Shown here one piece after another: positions 24,442-30,785 of a stretch of 61,729 bases of DNA. The position numbers and the translations under genes are program-made. This DNA is from an uncultured Spirochaetales bacterium. Its GTDB lineage: Bacteria > Spirochaetota > Spirochaetia > Sphaerochaetales > Sphaerochaetaceae. Under the pieces are notes generated by a model, which made no database searches, was not told where the DNA came from, and saw only the letters and a program-made list of their open reading frames with translations. The stretch spans positions 112,617 to 174,345 of the forward strand of contig CALXXN010000003.1 in NCBI GenBank assembly GCA_944392695.1, in the 5' to 3' direction. Numbering within the stretch: the first letter of the stretch is position 1; the number at the start of each line of letters is the position of its first letter.

Positions 24442-25656
24442 TCAAAGAGCTGATTCAATCGATGAGAGGTCGAAGTTCTCCTTGAGTGAGGCTGATGCGA
24501 CCTTCTTGCCTTCCTTGTAGAGATAGGCGGAGAGGTGGGCACCAGAAAGGATCCTCATGACCTTGTCGCTCTTGTAGATGTCGACAGGCTTGATCTCGAT
24601 TCCATGCTCCTTGCCATAGGTCTCCAGCTTCAGGAGCACCGCCCTGTCATTGTCCTCACTAGCGTTGTAGTAGAAGACGATGACGCGGTCCTTGGAAAGG
24701 ATGTCGTCATGAATCGTGTCGAGGTCGCTGATATACCTCTCAGCCATGGAGCCTGCGACAGCGCCATCACCAACTGCAGTGGCGACCTGGCGGAGGACCT
24801 TGGCCCTGACGTCACCAGCGGCGAAGATACCTGGCTGGTTGGTCTCCATCTCCTCGTTCGTGATGACATAACCACGAGAGTCGAGGTTGACAAGCCCCTC
24901 GAAGAGCTGGGTGTTGGGCAGGTAGCCGATGAAGAGGAAGCAACCATCGACATCGACAGGGATGATCTCGCCAGTCTTGAGGTTCTTCAGATTGACACGC
25001 TTGAGCATGTCATCACCCTCGAAAGAGTCGACGGAGGTGTTCCAGATGAAGTGCATCTTCTCGTTCTTGAAGGCCTTCTCTGCAGCGACCTGGTTGGCAT
25101 CGACATGGCCCTCGTCGTGGACGACAGAGACCCAGACCTCGCTGCAGAAGCGGGTGAGGAAGGTACCTTCCTCGATTGCGGCATCACCAGAACCGATGAT
25201 CAGGACCTTCTTGCCAGTGTAGCGGGCAGCATCACAAGTGGCGCAGAAGCTGATACCCTTGTCAAGGTAGTTCTCCTCGCCAGGAGCACCGGTAAGGCGG
25301 TTGCGTCCACCAGTGGAGATGACAACAGCCTTTGCGTAGTAATTTGTGCGGAACGTGGAAACGCACCAGCGGCCATCCTCCAGCCTCTCAACACCCTTGC
25401 AGTCTGTGAGCTTGACGTTGACACCAAACTTGCGGAACTGCTTGTCGAAGAGCTTCATCAGCTCTGTACCATCGATGCCCTCTGGGAATCCAGGGTAGTT
25501 CTCAATCTCACTTGTGTAAGTTGCAAGACCACCGATGAGGGATTTCTCGAGGAGCAGTGTCTTCAACCTTGCGCGGCCAGCGTAAAGGGCTGCTGTCATG
25601 CCACCAGCGCCACCACCAATGACGACGACATCATATTCTTCGATTCTCTTTTCCAT
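24442..25656 (-). CDS. Thioredoxin-reductase-like flavoprotein with degenerate thioredoxin tail
   Basis: FAD and pyridine-nucleotide disulfide oxidoreductase. The FAD-binding GGGAGGM lies near residue 14, the redox pair C138-A-T-C141 matches the TrxB active site, GSGDAAIEEG is the second dinucleotide fold, and GIFAAGDVRAK binds FAD. The NADPH-selecting HRRxxxR motif is absent; the site reads VVHDEGHVDANQ. After the usual 310 residues comes a 90-residue thioredoxin-like domain without CxxC. ATG 25656 follows AAGGA; the longer frame to 25767 overlaps yeeE and is not used. It is the last gene of the tusA-yeeE operon, so a sulfur-relay role is likely. Partner and electron donor are unknown. Confidence 0.85.
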   Translation of the reverse strand: MEKRIEEYDVVVIGGGAGGMTAALYAGRARLKTLLLEKSLIGGLATYTSEIENYPGFPEGIDGTELMKLFDKQFRKFGVNVKLTDCKGVERLEDGRWCVSTFRTNYYAKAVVISTGGRNRLTGAPGEENYLDKGISFCATCDAARYTGKKVLIIGSGDAAIEEGTFLTRFCSEVWVSVVHDEGHVDANQVAAEKAFKNEKMHFIWNTSVDSFEGDDMLKRVNLKNLKTGEIIPVDVDGCFLFIGYLPNTQLFEGLVNLDSRGYVITNEEMETNQPGIFAAGDVRAKVLRQVATAVGDGAVAGSMAERYISDLDTIHDDILSKDRVIVFYYNASEDNDRAVLLKLETYGKEHGIEIKPVDIYKSDKVMRILSGAHLSAYLYKEGKKVASASLKENFDLSSIESAL

Positions 25657-25723
25657 GATCTGATTCCTTATGAAAAAAGCTGTCCCTGACATGCAAAGTG
25701 CAGGGACAGCCAGGGAAAAGGGC

Positions 25724-26950
25724 TTAGTTGAACTGCGCCCTCTTCTTGTTCTCCCACCACCAGGCAAGGATCCAAAGGCCGAGGAGGGCCAGGAGCTGGA
25801 TCAGGAGGGCAGGAACAAGGCCGCCAAAGAGCTGGGGCAGGTAGACCTTTGAACCAGCAGTGAACCAAGTTCCAGCGGTGGCTTTCGTGATGGCACCAGC
25901 AAACGCGTTACCAAGGCAGAAGAAGGGGAAGCAGATCCAGAGCTGGACATAACCTTCACCCATCCTGACGAAGGTGCCGGAGGCACAACCGCCAGCCAGG
26001 ACAGCGCCGATTCCAAAGATGAATGAACCGATGCACATCTGGAGGTTGATGACGTTGCCAGGCATGTTCTCAGCGGTGAGGCCTGAGAGGTCGGCACCGA
26101 ACTGTGATGCATGGCGTCCGAAGAAGAAGATCGTCGCCAGGGCGAAAGCGACGATGACAGCCCTTGTGAGCTTTGTCTCGCCTGTGAGACCTGGGTCGCG
26201 GTAGGCTGCAGTAAAGCAGAAGCGTGAGCGTTGCATCGAGTAGCCAAGGCCGATGCCAATCACCAGGAAGAGCGGAGCCTTCGGGTAGTTGGGGGCGACA
26301 ACGAAGGAGACGATCAGGAGGAGGGCGATGATCACGACAGCTGCAATGATCTGGATCCTCTTGTTCCTGAGCTTCTGCTCAGCGGTCAGCCTCTTCCTCT
26401 TGGGCCTCTGGTTGGACACGGGAGGCATGAAGTACTTCAGGAGCTTGCCTCCAACTGTCGCACCAAGGAAGACGAAGAGGAGGAAGAGCCAGGCAGCAAG
26501 TGAGAACTGTGGGAGCTGGGAGAAGAGGCCACCGATGTTACAACCACCGGCCATCTTGGCTCCAACACCCATCAAGAGGCCACCAACGATAGCGGCAAGA
26601 GCCTGCTTGTAGTGCTTGATGTTCCTGATCTTCCACTGGGCAGCCAGGAGACAGGCGATCAAAGCACCGAGCAGGAGTCCGATGTCAGTGAGGGAAGCCT
26701 GGTTGTTCCAGAAGTTGTAGGTGGAGGTATCTGTTCCGAAAGTAGCAGCAGTGTCGATTCCGAAAAGGGAAAGGAACATGTTGCCCCACATGCCAAGTGC
26801 ACCGGAGACACCCCATGTGCTGCCGAACATGCACAGGGCCATCGCGAAGATGACAATCAGCGCGGAACCAGCGTAGTATGACCATTCCTTCTTCAGGATG
26901 ATGTCATAAAGGGCTGGCTTTTCAAGCTGGGTATTCTGATTCTGGTCCAT
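25724..26950 (-). CDS. YeeE/YedE family thiosulfate or sulfur-compound transporter
   Basis: A polytopic inner-membrane protein of 408 residues, the two-repeat form of the YeeE/YedE family; the YeeE (TsuA) branch takes up thiosulfate. Both repeats show the family cysteine motifs: MAGGCNIGGLFSQ in the first half and LAGGCASGTFVRMGEG in the second, plus SRFCF between them. About ten hydrophobic helices are visible, with a basic loop (RPKRKRLTAEQKLRNKR) in the middle. ATG 26950 gives MDQNQNTQLEK. It sits 11 bases after tusA, the classic YeeE-YeeD pairing. Confidence 0.88.
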   Translation of the reverse strand: MDQNQNTQLEKPALYDIILKKEWSYYAGSALIVIFAMALCMFGSTWGVSGALGMWGNMFLSLFGIDTAATFGTDTSTYNFWNNQASLTDIGLLLGALIACLLAAQWKIRNIKHYKQALAAIVGGLLMGVGAKMAGGCNIGGLFSQLPQFSLAAWLFLLFVFLGATVGGKLLKYFMPPVSNQRPKRKRLTAEQKLRNKRIQIIAAVVIIALLLIVSFVVAPNYPKAPLFLVIGIGLGYSMQRSRFCFTAAYRDPGLTGETKLTRAVIVAFALATIFFFGRHASQFGADLSGLTAENMPGNVINLQMCIGSFIFGIGAVLAGGCASGTFVRMGEGYVQLWICFPFFCLGNAFAGAITKATAGTWFTAGSKVYLPQLFGGLVPALLIQLLALLGLWILAWWWENKKRAQFN

Positions 26951-26961
26951 CAGGGTCCGCC

Positions 26962-27189
26962 TCACTTGGTCTTCTCGATGACGACTTCCCATTCACCGTC
27001 GCCAACTTCTTCGATTTCGACGTTGTAACCCTGGCCACGTGCCCAGTCTGGGACGTTCTTCATGGCACAGGTGTGGTCAATACCAACAACGAGGACATCA
27101 CCAACAGCCATCTCCTTGATGGCGTTCTGTGTCTTCACGAGAGGCACAGGGCAGGCCTCGCCAAGGCAGTCAAGATACTTTTCAGCCAT
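26962..27189 (-). CDS. TusA/YeeD-type sulfur carrier protein
   Basis: A sulfurtransferase of 75 residues with the family motif L-G-E-A-C-P-V-P, where Cys13 carries the persulfide. It starts MAEKYLDCLGEACPVP and contains the typical VGDVLVVGIDH strand and a C-terminal VVIEK. The ATG is preceded by AAGGAG. As first gene of the operon with the YeeE transporter it probably receives sulfur from the imported compound (TsuB role). Confidence 0.92.
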   Translation of the reverse strand: MAEKYLDCLGEACPVPLVKTQNAIKEMAVGDVLVVGIDHTCAMKNVPDWARGQGYNVEIEEVGDGEWEVVIEKTK

Positions 27190-27260
27190 TGTCTTTTCTC
27201 TCCTTGTTTAGAAGTGATATATGAATTGCACCACTTAGATGTGGAGGTCGCAACTTTTAG

Positions 27261-27279
27261 TTTGTGACTTTTTGACATT
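27261..27279 (-). promoter_or_regulatory. Candidate Crp/Fnr operator 1 in front of tusA
   Basis: TTTGTGACTTTTTGACATT on the plus strand, nearly identical to the site 32 bases away (27293-27311). It lies in the 123-base gap between tusA and the Crp/Fnr gene, so it is well placed to control the tusA operon. Confidence 0.5.
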
Positions 27280-27292
27280 CATGGCTGATGCA

Positions 27293-27311
27293 TTTGTGAC
27301 TTTTCGACAAA
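27293..27311 (-). promoter_or_regulatory. Candidate Crp/Fnr operator 2 in front of tusA
   Basis: TTTGTGACTTTTCGACAAA has dyad symmetry TTTGT-N9-ACAAA, the size of a Crp/Fnr site but with a non-standard core. It ends one base before the stop codon of the Crp/Fnr gene at 27313. Confidence 0.5.
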
Positions 27312-27312
27312 G

Positions 27313-27969
27313 TCAGATCGATGCTAGTTTTCCCGCATCGATTATCTTTATCCTGCCATGATTTGACTGAAGGATACCTTCCTTTTCAAGCTGGGCTGTT
27401 ATTGTGGATACCTGGCTCCTTGAAACAGCAGTCTCCTCACTTATTTTACTTTGCGTCACATCAATTATACCACCTGGAAAATAAGATGCGAGGTCATAGA
27501 GATAAGACGCGACCAGCTGGCGGGGCGTGGACTGGGTACGGTCCTTGATGATGTAGAGGATGTCAGCGAAGCGGTCCATGAAGTTGCGTCGGAGGAAATG
27601 GGACATGCCTGGATATCGGTCCTTCATCTCATTGAATGTCTGGGCAGGGACCTTGAGGATCCTGGAATCCATATCTGCGATGATGTTGATCTTGGCCGCT
27701 GTCCCATACAGCAAGGGACTGGATCCGAGGATGCAGATGTCATCTGGATTGAGGTAATACAAAAGGATTGAATGCCGCTCCTGCCGCAGGACGCTCTTGA
27801 GCCGGCCATCGATGACGAAGATGATGTTGTCACACATGACATCAGGAGAAGCGATCAGCTCACCCTTGCCAAAGCACTGGGTGAAGCTCCGGAAGCACAG
27901 TTCTTCCTGGTCTCCGGCGTCCAGCGAAGAGAAGAATGGAAGATAAGTTTCCAGAAGCTTCCTGATCAT
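27313..27969 (-). CDS. Crp/Fnr family transcription regulator, first copy
   Basis: 218 residues: an N-terminal cyclic-nucleotide-type beta-roll (about 15-120; FGKGELIASPDVMCDNIIFVIDGRLKSVL), a long dimer helix, and a C-terminal winged helix with KISEETAVSRSQVSTITAQLEKEGIL as recognition region. The roll lacks the R-S cAMP phosphate-binding cassette of CRP, so it is probably not a cAMP sensor. It is followed by the tusA operon on the same strand and divergent from a second Crp/Fnr gene with 46 bases between. Confidence 0.88.
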   Translation of the reverse strand: MIRKLLETYLPFFSSLDAGDQEELCFRSFTQCFGKGELIASPDVMCDNIIFVIDGRLKSVLRQERHSILLYYLNPDDICILGSSPLLYGTAAKINIIADMDSRILKVPAQTFNEMKDRYPGMSHFLRRNFMDRFADILYIIKDRTQSTPRQLVASYLYDLASYFPGGIIDVTQSKISEETAVSRSQVSTITAQLEKEGILQSNHGRIKIIDAGKLASI

Positions 27970-28015: not shown

Positions 28016-28690
28016 TTGCTGACCACAGCGGATTTCGAAGCACTCATGAACTCATGTCAAATCCTCCAGACCCTTCCTGACAAAGACAAGGAAGAGGTAC
28101 GGAGGGTGGGGGAAGTGCGTCCCTTCAAGCGAGGACAGGTCCTCCGTGACCGCAAGGGCGCTGTGAATGCGATGATCTTTTTGAAGAAGGGGCTTGTGCG
28201 TTTCCATACCTGTGGTCAGGACGGGACAGATGTCATGCTCTTCTATGTGGCACCAGGACAGAGCTGCATCATGACATGTCCAAGGCTCTGCTGCTCAAGC
28301 GCATTGGACTACAAGGCCGAGGTTGTTGAAGATAGTGATATCATCCTACTTGGTGAAGACCTCCTGAGGAGCTTTGAAGAATCACACCCTCAGGTCAGGC
28401 GCTACGTTGATAATGTCCTTGCATTCCGTTTGGACAGGCTTTTCACTCAACTTGCATCAATTGTCTCTGATGACCTGACAGAGCGTGTAATGAAATACCT
28501 TATATATATGAAAGAGACGCTTGGCACATCAGAGCTTTCATTGACTCATAAGGCCATAAGCCAAGATCTCAACTGCCGCCGCGAGGTAGTGACCAGGATC
28601 CTCTCTCATTTCCAGGCTGATGGCATGATCAGCCTGGGCCGCAACAACATACAGATCCTTGACAGCCCGCTCTGGGGTGATATCAGCTGA
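28016..28690 (+). CDS. Crp/Fnr family transcription regulator with cysteine cluster
   Basis: 224 residues with the same fold order as its divergent neighbour: beta-roll (FKRGQVLRDRKGAVNAMIFLKKGLVRFH), dimer helix, and winged helix (LTHKAISQDLNCRREVVTRILSHFQADGMI). It differs by a cluster C84-x3-C88-x3-C92-C93 in the roll, near where effectors bind, a plausible thiol, persulfide or metal sensor given the sulfur genes next door. The start is TTG 28016 behind AGAGGA; ATG 28046 is the alternative. Confidence 0.85.
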   Translation: MLTTADFEALMNSCQILQTLPDKDKEEVRRVGEVRPFKRGQVLRDRKGAVNAMIFLKKGLVRFHTCGQDGTDVMLFYVAPGQSCIMTCPRLCCSSALDYKAEVVEDSDIILLGEDLLRSFEESHPQVRRYVDNVLAFRLDRLFTQLASIVSDDLTERVMKYLIYMKETLGTSELSLTHKAISQDLNCRREVVTRILSHFQADGMISLGRNNIQILDSPLWGDIS

Positions 28691-29519: not shown

Positions 29520-30725
29520 CTATTTCAGCTCCTGGATGCGCTTGCCCATGAATTCCACAAGACCGACAACAAGTGCATTTCCCATACAGAAATAACGAAA
29601 ACTCTCAGGCATGCCGGTATTGGTCCATTCATCAGGGAATCCATTAAGACGTTCACATTCAACAGGGGTCAGCAGGCGCAGGCGTCCAGTTGAAGGATCT
29701 GTCACCACATGGCTTGAGCGGTTCTTCGAAGCTTCGCTCGTTAGCATGGTCCTGCTAGGCTTGTCCAAGGGGTCTGGGAAGGCAATCGCACCCTCTGCGA
29801 AGGAATATTCAAAGCCAGCTGCGGAGACCCTGGAAACCTTCTTGGCTCCCTTCATATATTGCCATTTAGCCTCATCATCAGGCTTCAGATAATACTTCTC
29901 TGGGACACTGGATTGAATGATATCGCCCAGGGTCATGGATTTGCCATTGTAGACAGCTTCAACACGTAATGTATGGCAATTCCCTTCATAGCAGTAACCA
30001 CTGTTCTCAAAAGGAAATCTGAAGCTATCTGAGACCGATTTGACATCATCAGGGATCACCACATCAGATATCCTTGCCCCGATATGGCGTTCACAAGGAA
30101 AGACTGCGGCGAAGAAACCACAGCCCATGAGGACCTCATCCGCTTTCCGGTCGCCATAGAGCTTCTCCTGTACTGATCCATCCATTGTGGCGAATATGAA
30201 TGTCCTGCGGCGTCTTTGGGGAAAGCCGTAGTCGGCAGCGTTGATCATACGCCATTCAATCGAATAACCCAGGCTTGTCAGGCATGCCAGGATGATTCCA
30301 AAATCCCTTCCACGCTGCTTTGCTGGTGATTTAAGCAACCTGTCAACATTCTCCAAGAGGATGAAACGTGGCCGCTTTTCTGTTGCAATACGGTAGATTT
30401 CCCACCACAGGACACCCTTCTTGCCCTGGATGCCTTTGGAGTTCGCAAGTGTTGATGCCACAGAGTAATCCTGGCATGGAAAACCCCCTACAAGAAGCTC
30501 ATGATCAGGAATCCTTGAGGCATCCACAGAAGATATATCTTCATTCAAGTTAAGGGAATCCTTAAAATGGCTGTCATAGCATTCAAATGCCCACTGGCGC
30601 TTCTTTCCTGGCTCCCATTGATCTGCCAGGACAATCTTCCAACCAGACTTCTCCAGCCCAAGATGGAAACCCCCAACACCAGCGAAAAGCTCTACGACCT
30701 TGTTTTCCGATGGATTTCCTGTCAT
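29520..30725 (-). CDS. Cytosine-5 DNA methyltransferase
   Basis: Methylates carbon 5 of cytosine in DNA. Motifs in order: I VELFAGVGGFHLGLE, IV GGFPCQDYSVA with the catalytic Cys, VI LENVDRLL, VIII PQRRRRTFIFA, a target-recognition region, IX (PSRTMLTSE) and X MGNALVV. The 401 residues from ATG 30725 begin MTGNPSENKVVELF. The longer frame to 30785 is less likely because a TATAAT lies within it. No restriction endonuclease, Vsr nuclease or specificity gene is adjacent, so it looks solitary. It lies in AT-rich flanks, suggesting transfer. Target sequence cannot be read from the protein. Confidence 0.93.
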   Translation of the reverse strand: MTGNPSENKVVELFAGVGGFHLGLEKSGWKIVLADQWEPGKKRQWAFECYDSHFKDSLNLNEDISSVDASRIPDHELLVGGFPCQDYSVASTLANSKGIQGKKGVLWWEIYRIATEKRPRFILLENVDRLLKSPAKQRGRDFGIILACLTSLGYSIEWRMINAADYGFPQRRRRTFIFATMDGSVQEKLYGDRKADEVLMGCGFFAAVFPCERHIGARISDVVIPDDVKSVSDSFRFPFENSGYCYEGNCHTLRVEAVYNGKSMTLGDIIQSSVPEKYYLKPDDEAKWQYMKGAKKVSRVSAAGFEYSFAEGAIAFPDPLDKPSRTMLTSEASKNRSSHVVTDPSTGRLRLLTPVECERLNGFPDEWTNTGMPESFRYFCMGNALVVGLVEFMGKRIQELK

Positions 30726-30774
30726 CAAAACCCCACAAAAGCAGAAATCATAAGGCAAACGCCTGATTGTCTGG

Positions 30775-30780
30775 ATTATA
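30775..30780 (-). promoter_or_regulatory. Candidate -10 box for the methyltransferase
   Basis: A perfect TATAAT on the minus strand 49 bases upstream of ATG 30725. No good -35 element was found at normal spacing. Confidence 0.35.
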
Positions 30781-30785
30781 ACCAA

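Follow-up and report, generated by a model that had tools for sequence, protein, structure and literature searches.

Tandem lopsided sites in front of a spirochaete tusA operon: predicted operators of two neighbouring Crp/Fnr proteins

An uncultured Spirochaetales bacterium carries two nearly identical 19-mers in the 123-bp gap between the Crp/Fnr gene crpA and tusA, which raises the question of whether they are regulatory sites and which protein would read them. In the window, meaning the whole stretch of 61,729 nucleotides analysed here, they lie at positions 27261-27279 and 27293-27311, have 16 of 19 bases in common and are 32 bp apart, exactly as quoted in an earlier note on this DNA. On the minus strand the genes follow in the order crpA, tusA, a yeeE/yedE-like gene and a thioredoxin-reductase-like gene, with a second Crp/Fnr gene, crpB, divergent from crpA:

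24442..25659 (start uncertain), minus strand: thioredoxin-reductase-like flavoprotein with a C-terminal extension (TIGR01292, 7e-96)
25724..26956 (start uncertain), minus strand: yeeE/yedE-like predicted sulfur or selenium transporter (Pfam Sulf_transp, 1e-58)
26962..27189, minus strand: tusA, TusA/TsuB/YeeD-like sulfurtransferase (Pfam TusA, 3e-24)
27225..27230, minus strand: presumed -10, TGCAAT (T[AG]NNNT at a fixed distance from the site)
27248..27253, minus strand: presumed -35, TTGCGA (by eye)
27263..27277, minus strand: site 1 core TGTCAAAAAGTCACA, promoter-proximal predicted operator, centre about -52
27295..27309, minus strand: site 2 core TGTCGAAAAGTCACA, distal predicted operator, centre about -84
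27313..27969, minus strand: crpA, Crp/Fnr regulator (Pfam HTH_Crp_2 and cNMP_binding; helix ..SRSQVST..)
28016..28690 (start uncertain), plus strand: crpB, divergent Crp/Fnr regulator (Pfam HTH_Crp_2; canonical RExVxR helix)

Both regulators belong to the Crp/Fnr superfamily, with a cNMP-binding-like barrel and a C-terminal HTH_Crp_2 domain. CrpA exceeds the Pfam cut-offs for cNMP_binding and HTH_Crp_2, and CrpB exceeds that for HTH_Crp_2, its cNMP_binding match reaching 22.2 bits against a cut-off of 27.5. The structure model of CrpA (pLDDT 85.7, pTM 0.61) matches Crp/Fnr structures in fold comparison, and the nearest solved structure by both sequence (7e-31) and fold is 3dv8, a Crp/Fnr protein of Eubacterium rectale with 22% identity. 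TusA is 98.6-100% identical over 74-75 residues in nine same-genus genomes. TusA-like and YeeE-like proteins are encoded side by side, the arrangement by which YeeE/TsuA-TsuB thiosulfate uptake is recognised (the substrate is predicted), with NCBIfam matches below the cut-offs for both proteins and YedE/FdhT as the transporter's best, at 2.8e-53. The thioredoxin-reductase-like protein matches TIGR01292 over residues 9-310 of 405 with 320 bits, under the cut-off of 343. Elsewhere in the window, a minus-strand frame at 29520-30785 resembles a cytosine-C5 DNA methyltransferase by eye (FAGVGG, GGFPCQ).

Genome-wide searches covered the host draft genome of 2.31 Mb, in which the 17-mer TTTGTGACTTTTNGACA matches without mismatch at the twin sites only and at two further places with 2 mismatches. 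The core TGTC-N5-RTCACA is not rare alone, since it has 10 exact matches genome-wide versus 5 for a reversed control, and 16 matches at no more than one mismatch in the window versus 10.3 expected, a count reached by 7 of 100 shuffles. The case for the twin sites therefore rests on conservation. A large regulon was considered and set aside, own-genome matches being just twice the control.

Comparison with relatives changed the description of the element. The earlier note had described a two-fold dyad with a TTTGT half-site; the outer bases of the palindrome TTTGT-N9-ACAAA vary among relatives and we rejected it as the defining element, whereas the crpA-tusA gaps have in common an asymmetric element of 15 bases that reads TGTC-N5-RTCACA in coding (minus-strand) orientation. 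The note had also pointed to a third, weaker dyad overlapping site 1. This dyad, GTCGCAAC/TTTGTGAC from 27247 onward, overlaps the presumed -35 (TTGCGA), whose letters are variable across relatives, and it is therefore no conserved site.

Related genomes were searched in front of tusA/yeeE, the check that the note had proposed, and the motif was kept there. Among 24 genomes with a close tusA, 15 with crpA and 9 without it, the core occurs before tusA at no more than one mismatch in 13 of the 15 crpA-bearing loci, which span two genera, versus none of the 9 others (Fisher p = 4e-5, with independence overstated because the genomes are related; the 15 represent two genera and only 12 distinct tusA 15-mers). 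Within 200 nt upstream of tusA, 12 of the 15 loci hold an exact core, L091 has one mismatch and L007 and L009 have two; all nine crpA-less loci have at least two mismatches on either strand. First-order simulated upstream sequences contain the core at no more than one mismatch in 1.5% of cases (forward strand). In eight of the nine crpA-less loci no crp gene was recognised by eye in the 1.5 kb upstream of tusA, and in the ninth, L092, tusA stands beside a different Crp/Fnr gene (helix RNVVGR), which was left out of the CrpA group. The distal site is less widely kept: site 2 or its counterpart is present in four genomes (L005, L006, L012 and L013), lying exactly 32 bp from the first in L005, L006 and L012 (the last with one mismatch), while L013 keeps the distal site and its proximal one is unrecognisable. 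A second forward site at no more than one mismatch is absent from the other 11 loci, and L089 has an extra reversed site with one mismatch.

The two halves of the element differ and keep a fixed order. The right half is kept in 14 of the 15 crpA-bearing loci, and 11 of those 14 have the left TGTC. In 18 tusA sites (12 distinct 15-mers; the L013 proximal and L089 reversed sites left out), the left half has T 18, G 15, T 16 and C 18 times and is whole in 15, with exceptions in L007, L009 and L091; the right TCACA is kept at 18, 17, 18, 18 and 18 sites by position and is whole in 17. Neither a left TGTG nor a right GACA occurs among the 18, though each differs by a single base and the search would have admitted it. 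Read from the other strand, the promoter-proximal RTCACA gives TGTGAY, an ordinary half-site of CRP, here at N5 spacing, and the distal TGTCR alone is unusual. The element is accordingly distinct from the symmetric CRP/HcpR-type TGTGA-N6-TCACA, having N5 and a left TGTC. An FNR-type site is TTGAT-N4-ATCAA, and no such halves stand in the conserved 15-mer. The suggestion in the earlier note of a regulator with new specificity thus holds insofar as the site departs from both the FNR and the CRP consensus, but one half is ordinary, and the evidence points to two neighbouring regulators acting jointly rather than to one with a new palindrome. It is very probable that a regulator acts at the twin sites and that they belong with the neighbouring Crp/Fnr gene.

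From the sites, their asymmetry and fixed geometry, the co-occurrence of the two genes and their complementary residue losses, all computed here, we infer that a CrpA-CrpB heterodimer would bind the hybrid operator and control tusA-yeeE-trxB, more likely as an activator, a reading to which we assign a probability of roughly 0.55. On this reading each of the twin sites would be an operator, the two in tandem, for a dimer combining the adjacent proteins: CrpB, with ordinary CRP-type recognition residues, would take the promoter-proximal half (RTCACA, that is TGTGAY), and CrpA, in whose recognition helix two of the three base-reading residues are lost, the distal half (TGTCR). The signal sensed would presumably involve thiols, sulfur or an oxidant.

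The direction of control was considered from the promoter geometry. The 14 loci whose right half is present all have a T[AG]NNNT hexamer 32-33 nt after TCACA. Between 5 and 60 nt, the overlapping 31-32 bin gives 11 of 14 and every other distance at most 5; because the pattern was picked with the sequences in view, the count is descriptive. With this hexamer as the -10, sites 1 and 2 are centred at -52 and -84. In the window's genus a TTG was seen by eye 9-10 nt past site 1, with 17 nt from it to the -10; the presumed promoter is absent from the promoter scan output. A dimer at about -52 could be helped by a second at about -84 on the same helix face. Classical CRP activator positions are -41.5, -61.5 and helical-turn steps further upstream, so that -52 counts against activation, and the sites may instead be repressor operators, at which dimers would hinder polymerase or its upstream alpha-subunit contact until a signal released them. 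Besides the non-classical positions of both sites, that reading is favoured by A-rich tracts that, by eye, separate site and -35 in the window's genus and by several -10 boxes near consensus (TGTAAT, TAAAAT and TAGAAT are one base off). The sites overlap neither the presumed -35 nor the presumed -10, however, and the 14 site-bearing -10 boxes (TGCAAT, TGTAAT, TAGAAT, TAAAAT, TACTCT or TAAGAT) include no consensus TATAAT, whereas genome G009 of the same genus, with a 99% identical tusA and no crpA, crpB or site, has a promoter read by eye as TTGAGT-N17-TATAAT, a contrast that rests on this one crpA-less genome. This difference favours activation; we regard repression as rather unlikely and weakly prefer a role of the sites in activating the tusA operon. 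In the same genome (L036), an in-frame stop seems, by eye, to interrupt the yeeE-like frame downstream of tusA, reflecting either decay or an assembly error.

The two regulator genes occur together. Of the 139 genomes of the family, 15 (9 from the window's genus, 6 from a second one) carry a crpA orthologue (at least 185 bits; next 134), and the crpB orthologues (at least 200 bits; next 167) are in the same 15, none of the 139 having crpB at that threshold without crpA. All 15 have tusA directly downstream of crpA and crpB beside it in divergent orientation, so that two paralogues with differing recognition residues are both present where the tusA operator occurs. The window's CrpA is 45-52% identical to its eight same-genus relatives and 35-40% to the six of the second genus. 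CrpA and CrpB each form one clade (100/99), several CrpB branches being long, and their separate trees have 10 of 12 splits in common.

According to PMC1274295, CRP residues 180, 181 and 185 touch DNA, with R180 going with G3 and E181 with A6. Position 180, which corresponds to residue 184 of CrpA, is R in 14 of 15 CrpA proteins, in all 15 CrpB proteins and in all 24 stand-alone relatives compared. Position 181 is E in every CrpB and every relative and in no CrpA, which has S, T or G; position 185 is R in no CrpA, in all CrpB and in 22 relatives, the other two having K. The CrpB residues R, E, R are thus invariant against a mean column identity of 43%. The CrpA of L091 carries Ser in place of R180, and there the left half reads TTTC beside an intact right half, as expected from the R180-G3 rule (PMC1274295) if CrpA reads the left half only; this covariation is one case, and in L007 and L009 CrpA keeps RSQVS, yet the left half is TTCC.

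These residues bear on whether one protein could suffice. Crp/Fnr regulators are textbook homodimers on palindromes, and a CrpA homodimer of altered specificity might bind a strong and a weak half oriented by RNA polymerase contact, with CrpB regulating elsewhere. The position of crpA just upstream of tusA and the way the sites track its presence agree with this, as does the prevalence of homodimers in the family. Against it, a right GACA occurs in none of the 18 sites, although a single substitution would produce it; CrpA has neither E181 nor R185, whereas the TGTGA found in the right half accompanies those residues in CRP-type relatives; the left half alone follows the CrpA change in L091; and among the 139 genomes none has a crpB orthologue of at least 200 bits without crpA. 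We consider a CrpA homodimer unlikely. A CrpB homodimer on one good and one poor half, CrpA being a modulating sensor or having other targets, would account for the invariant R, E, R and for the right half, which is the half-site expected of CrpB and is conserved best, but left TGTG occurs in none of the 18 sites, and the exact symmetric TGTGAY-N3-RTCACA is absent from six of the nine crpB-bearing genomes of the genus (a count of exact copies; imperfect ones exist, such as one before trxA), which makes it distinctly improbable. A third family member was also rejected as reader of the right half: none was found at E 1e-25 in 8 of the 15 pair genomes (draft bins, in which a gap is possible), and the TGTGA half is therefore hard to ascribe to one. 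A function of the repeats at the RNA level, whether as hairpin or as crpA terminator, is barely tenable, for although site 2 RNA alone folds at -6 kcal/mol (z -3.0), site 1 RNA gives 0 kcal/mol, the whole gap folds no better than shuffles (z -0.45), conservation falls on the half-sites themselves and not on complementary arms of varying sequence, and the terminator scan found no terminator in the gap. The twin sites can with high confidence be predicted to be regulatory sites of the CrpA/CrpB pair.

Stand-alone Crp/Fnr relatives suggest where the pair came from. The 24 compared are a selection from the loci fetched after family and phylum searches and include the near-copies L028/L030 and L185/L186; their helix is R-E-V-[VI]-x-[RK] throughout. 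TGTGA-N5-TCACA at no more than one mismatch has 16 matches in 12 of their 24 loci, 3 of them exact, versus 1, 4, 4, 5, 2, 3 and 1 for spacings N2, N3, N4, N6, N7, N8 and N9. A thioredoxin or peroxiredoxin gene stands nearby (by eye) in 9 of 11 loci, 7 of which had been chosen for holding the palindrome. The host's own genome has a third Crp/Fnr gene before trxA (L025:2159, contig 25), with TGTGACATCATCACT (one mismatch) just before trxA. This near-symmetric TGTGA-N5-TCACT lies 22 nt before a TATATT hexamer and would be centred at about -42 if that were the -10. Given the enrichment in the relatives' loci and the trxA site, N5 spacing looks like a trait of this Crp/Fnr branch, and the tusA sites look like a symmetric N5 palindrome with one half changed.

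The cysteines divide in a similar manner. C46 is present in all 15 CrpA proteins, no CrpB and all 24 relatives; C79 in all 15 CrpA, 8 of 15 CrpB and 22 of 24 relatives; and C85 in all 24 relatives and in neither CrpA nor CrpB. The split of tasks is not clean, since CrpA lacks C85 and eight CrpB proteins have C79. The stand-alone proteins of spirochaetes resemble the pair in kinship, N5 spacing, C46 plus C79 and thiol-redox neighbours, and differ in being single genes with a symmetric site, a canonical helix and C85. The pair may derive from such a single-gene thiol-redox regulator beside trxA with a symmetric TGTGA-N5-TCACA site, CrpA after duplication keeping two cysteines as presumed sensor and CrpB the full DNA reading.

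Known systems offer partial parallels. Heterodimeric Fnr proteins already have precedent: in Herbaspirillum seropedicae, Fnr1-Fnr3 heterodimers were proposed on hybrid motifs with one half-site each (PMC5934665). There too, two Crp/Fnr paralogues would bind one half upstream and the other downstream, but each has its own promoters and forms homodimers, as that paper describes them, whereas crpA and crpB are divergent, co-occurring, beside their target and complementary in residue losses. A cyanobacterial paper (PMC2633013) raises the idea that a CRP monomer or a heterodimer binds a site that is non-canonical. HcpR/CRP-type regulators have the half-site TGTGA and residues 180, 181 and 185 in common with this system; as given in PMC1274295, their sites are a symmetric N6 wTGTGAnnnnnnTCACAw or FNR-like with hcp as target, in contrast to the lopsided N5 sites of a sulfur operon. 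TGTCR falls within the CooA consensus TGTCGGCNNGCCGACA, which is a symmetric 16-mer (PMC545781), while the tusA site has TGTCR in one half only. In literature searches, titles and opening lines of abstracts contained nothing recognisable as this site or the crpA-crpB pair.

Further candidate targets were sought with a stricter pattern, which gave 19 matches in 16 genomes of the genus: 9 before tusA, 3 at one rubrerythrin-like gene and 7 elsewhere, 5 of these within reading frames and 2, both in G010, between genes; strict matches in the crpA-less genomes G006, G007 and G011 are inside reading frames. One of those between genes in G010 (contig 7, L134:1501) is TGTCTTTTTATCACAAA, shortly before a thioredoxin-domain frame (Pfam 3.8e-8), seen in one genome. 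A lopsided site upstream of the rubredoxin/rubrerythrin-like gene is exact in G001, G010, G013 and G015 (L169) and has one mismatch in G008 (L168); G001, G010 and G013 (L131-L133) are near relatives with a near-identical promoter at this gene. No site at no more than one mismatch precedes it in the crpA-bearing G002, G005 and G012 or the crpA-less G004 and G009, and in G015 the site is separated from the gene by a terminator-like repeat (by eye). At E 1e-20 no gene of this kind was found in the window's genome. Since the distribution is patchy and this genome lacks the gene, it would at most be an additional target for some members of the genus.

Taken at its fullest, the proposed mechanism is an obligate heterodimeric Crp/Fnr sensor arising from a duplicated thiol-redox regulator with split jobs, CrpA contributing the cysteine pair and a new half-site, and CrpB the ancestral half-site with a cysteine lost; its hybrid operators would precede an operon for sulfur import and thioredoxin reductase and, in certain species, also a rubrerythrin-like gene. 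We put this forward tentatively, at a little under an even chance. The host genome itself encodes a stand-alone relative whose site is near-symmetric, which makes the evolutionary step directly testable. If correct, it would be a natural case of a duplicated homodimer becoming an obligate heterodimer with a new target, and would reveal a circuit by which uncultured spirochaetes control TusA/YeeE-type sulfur uptake.
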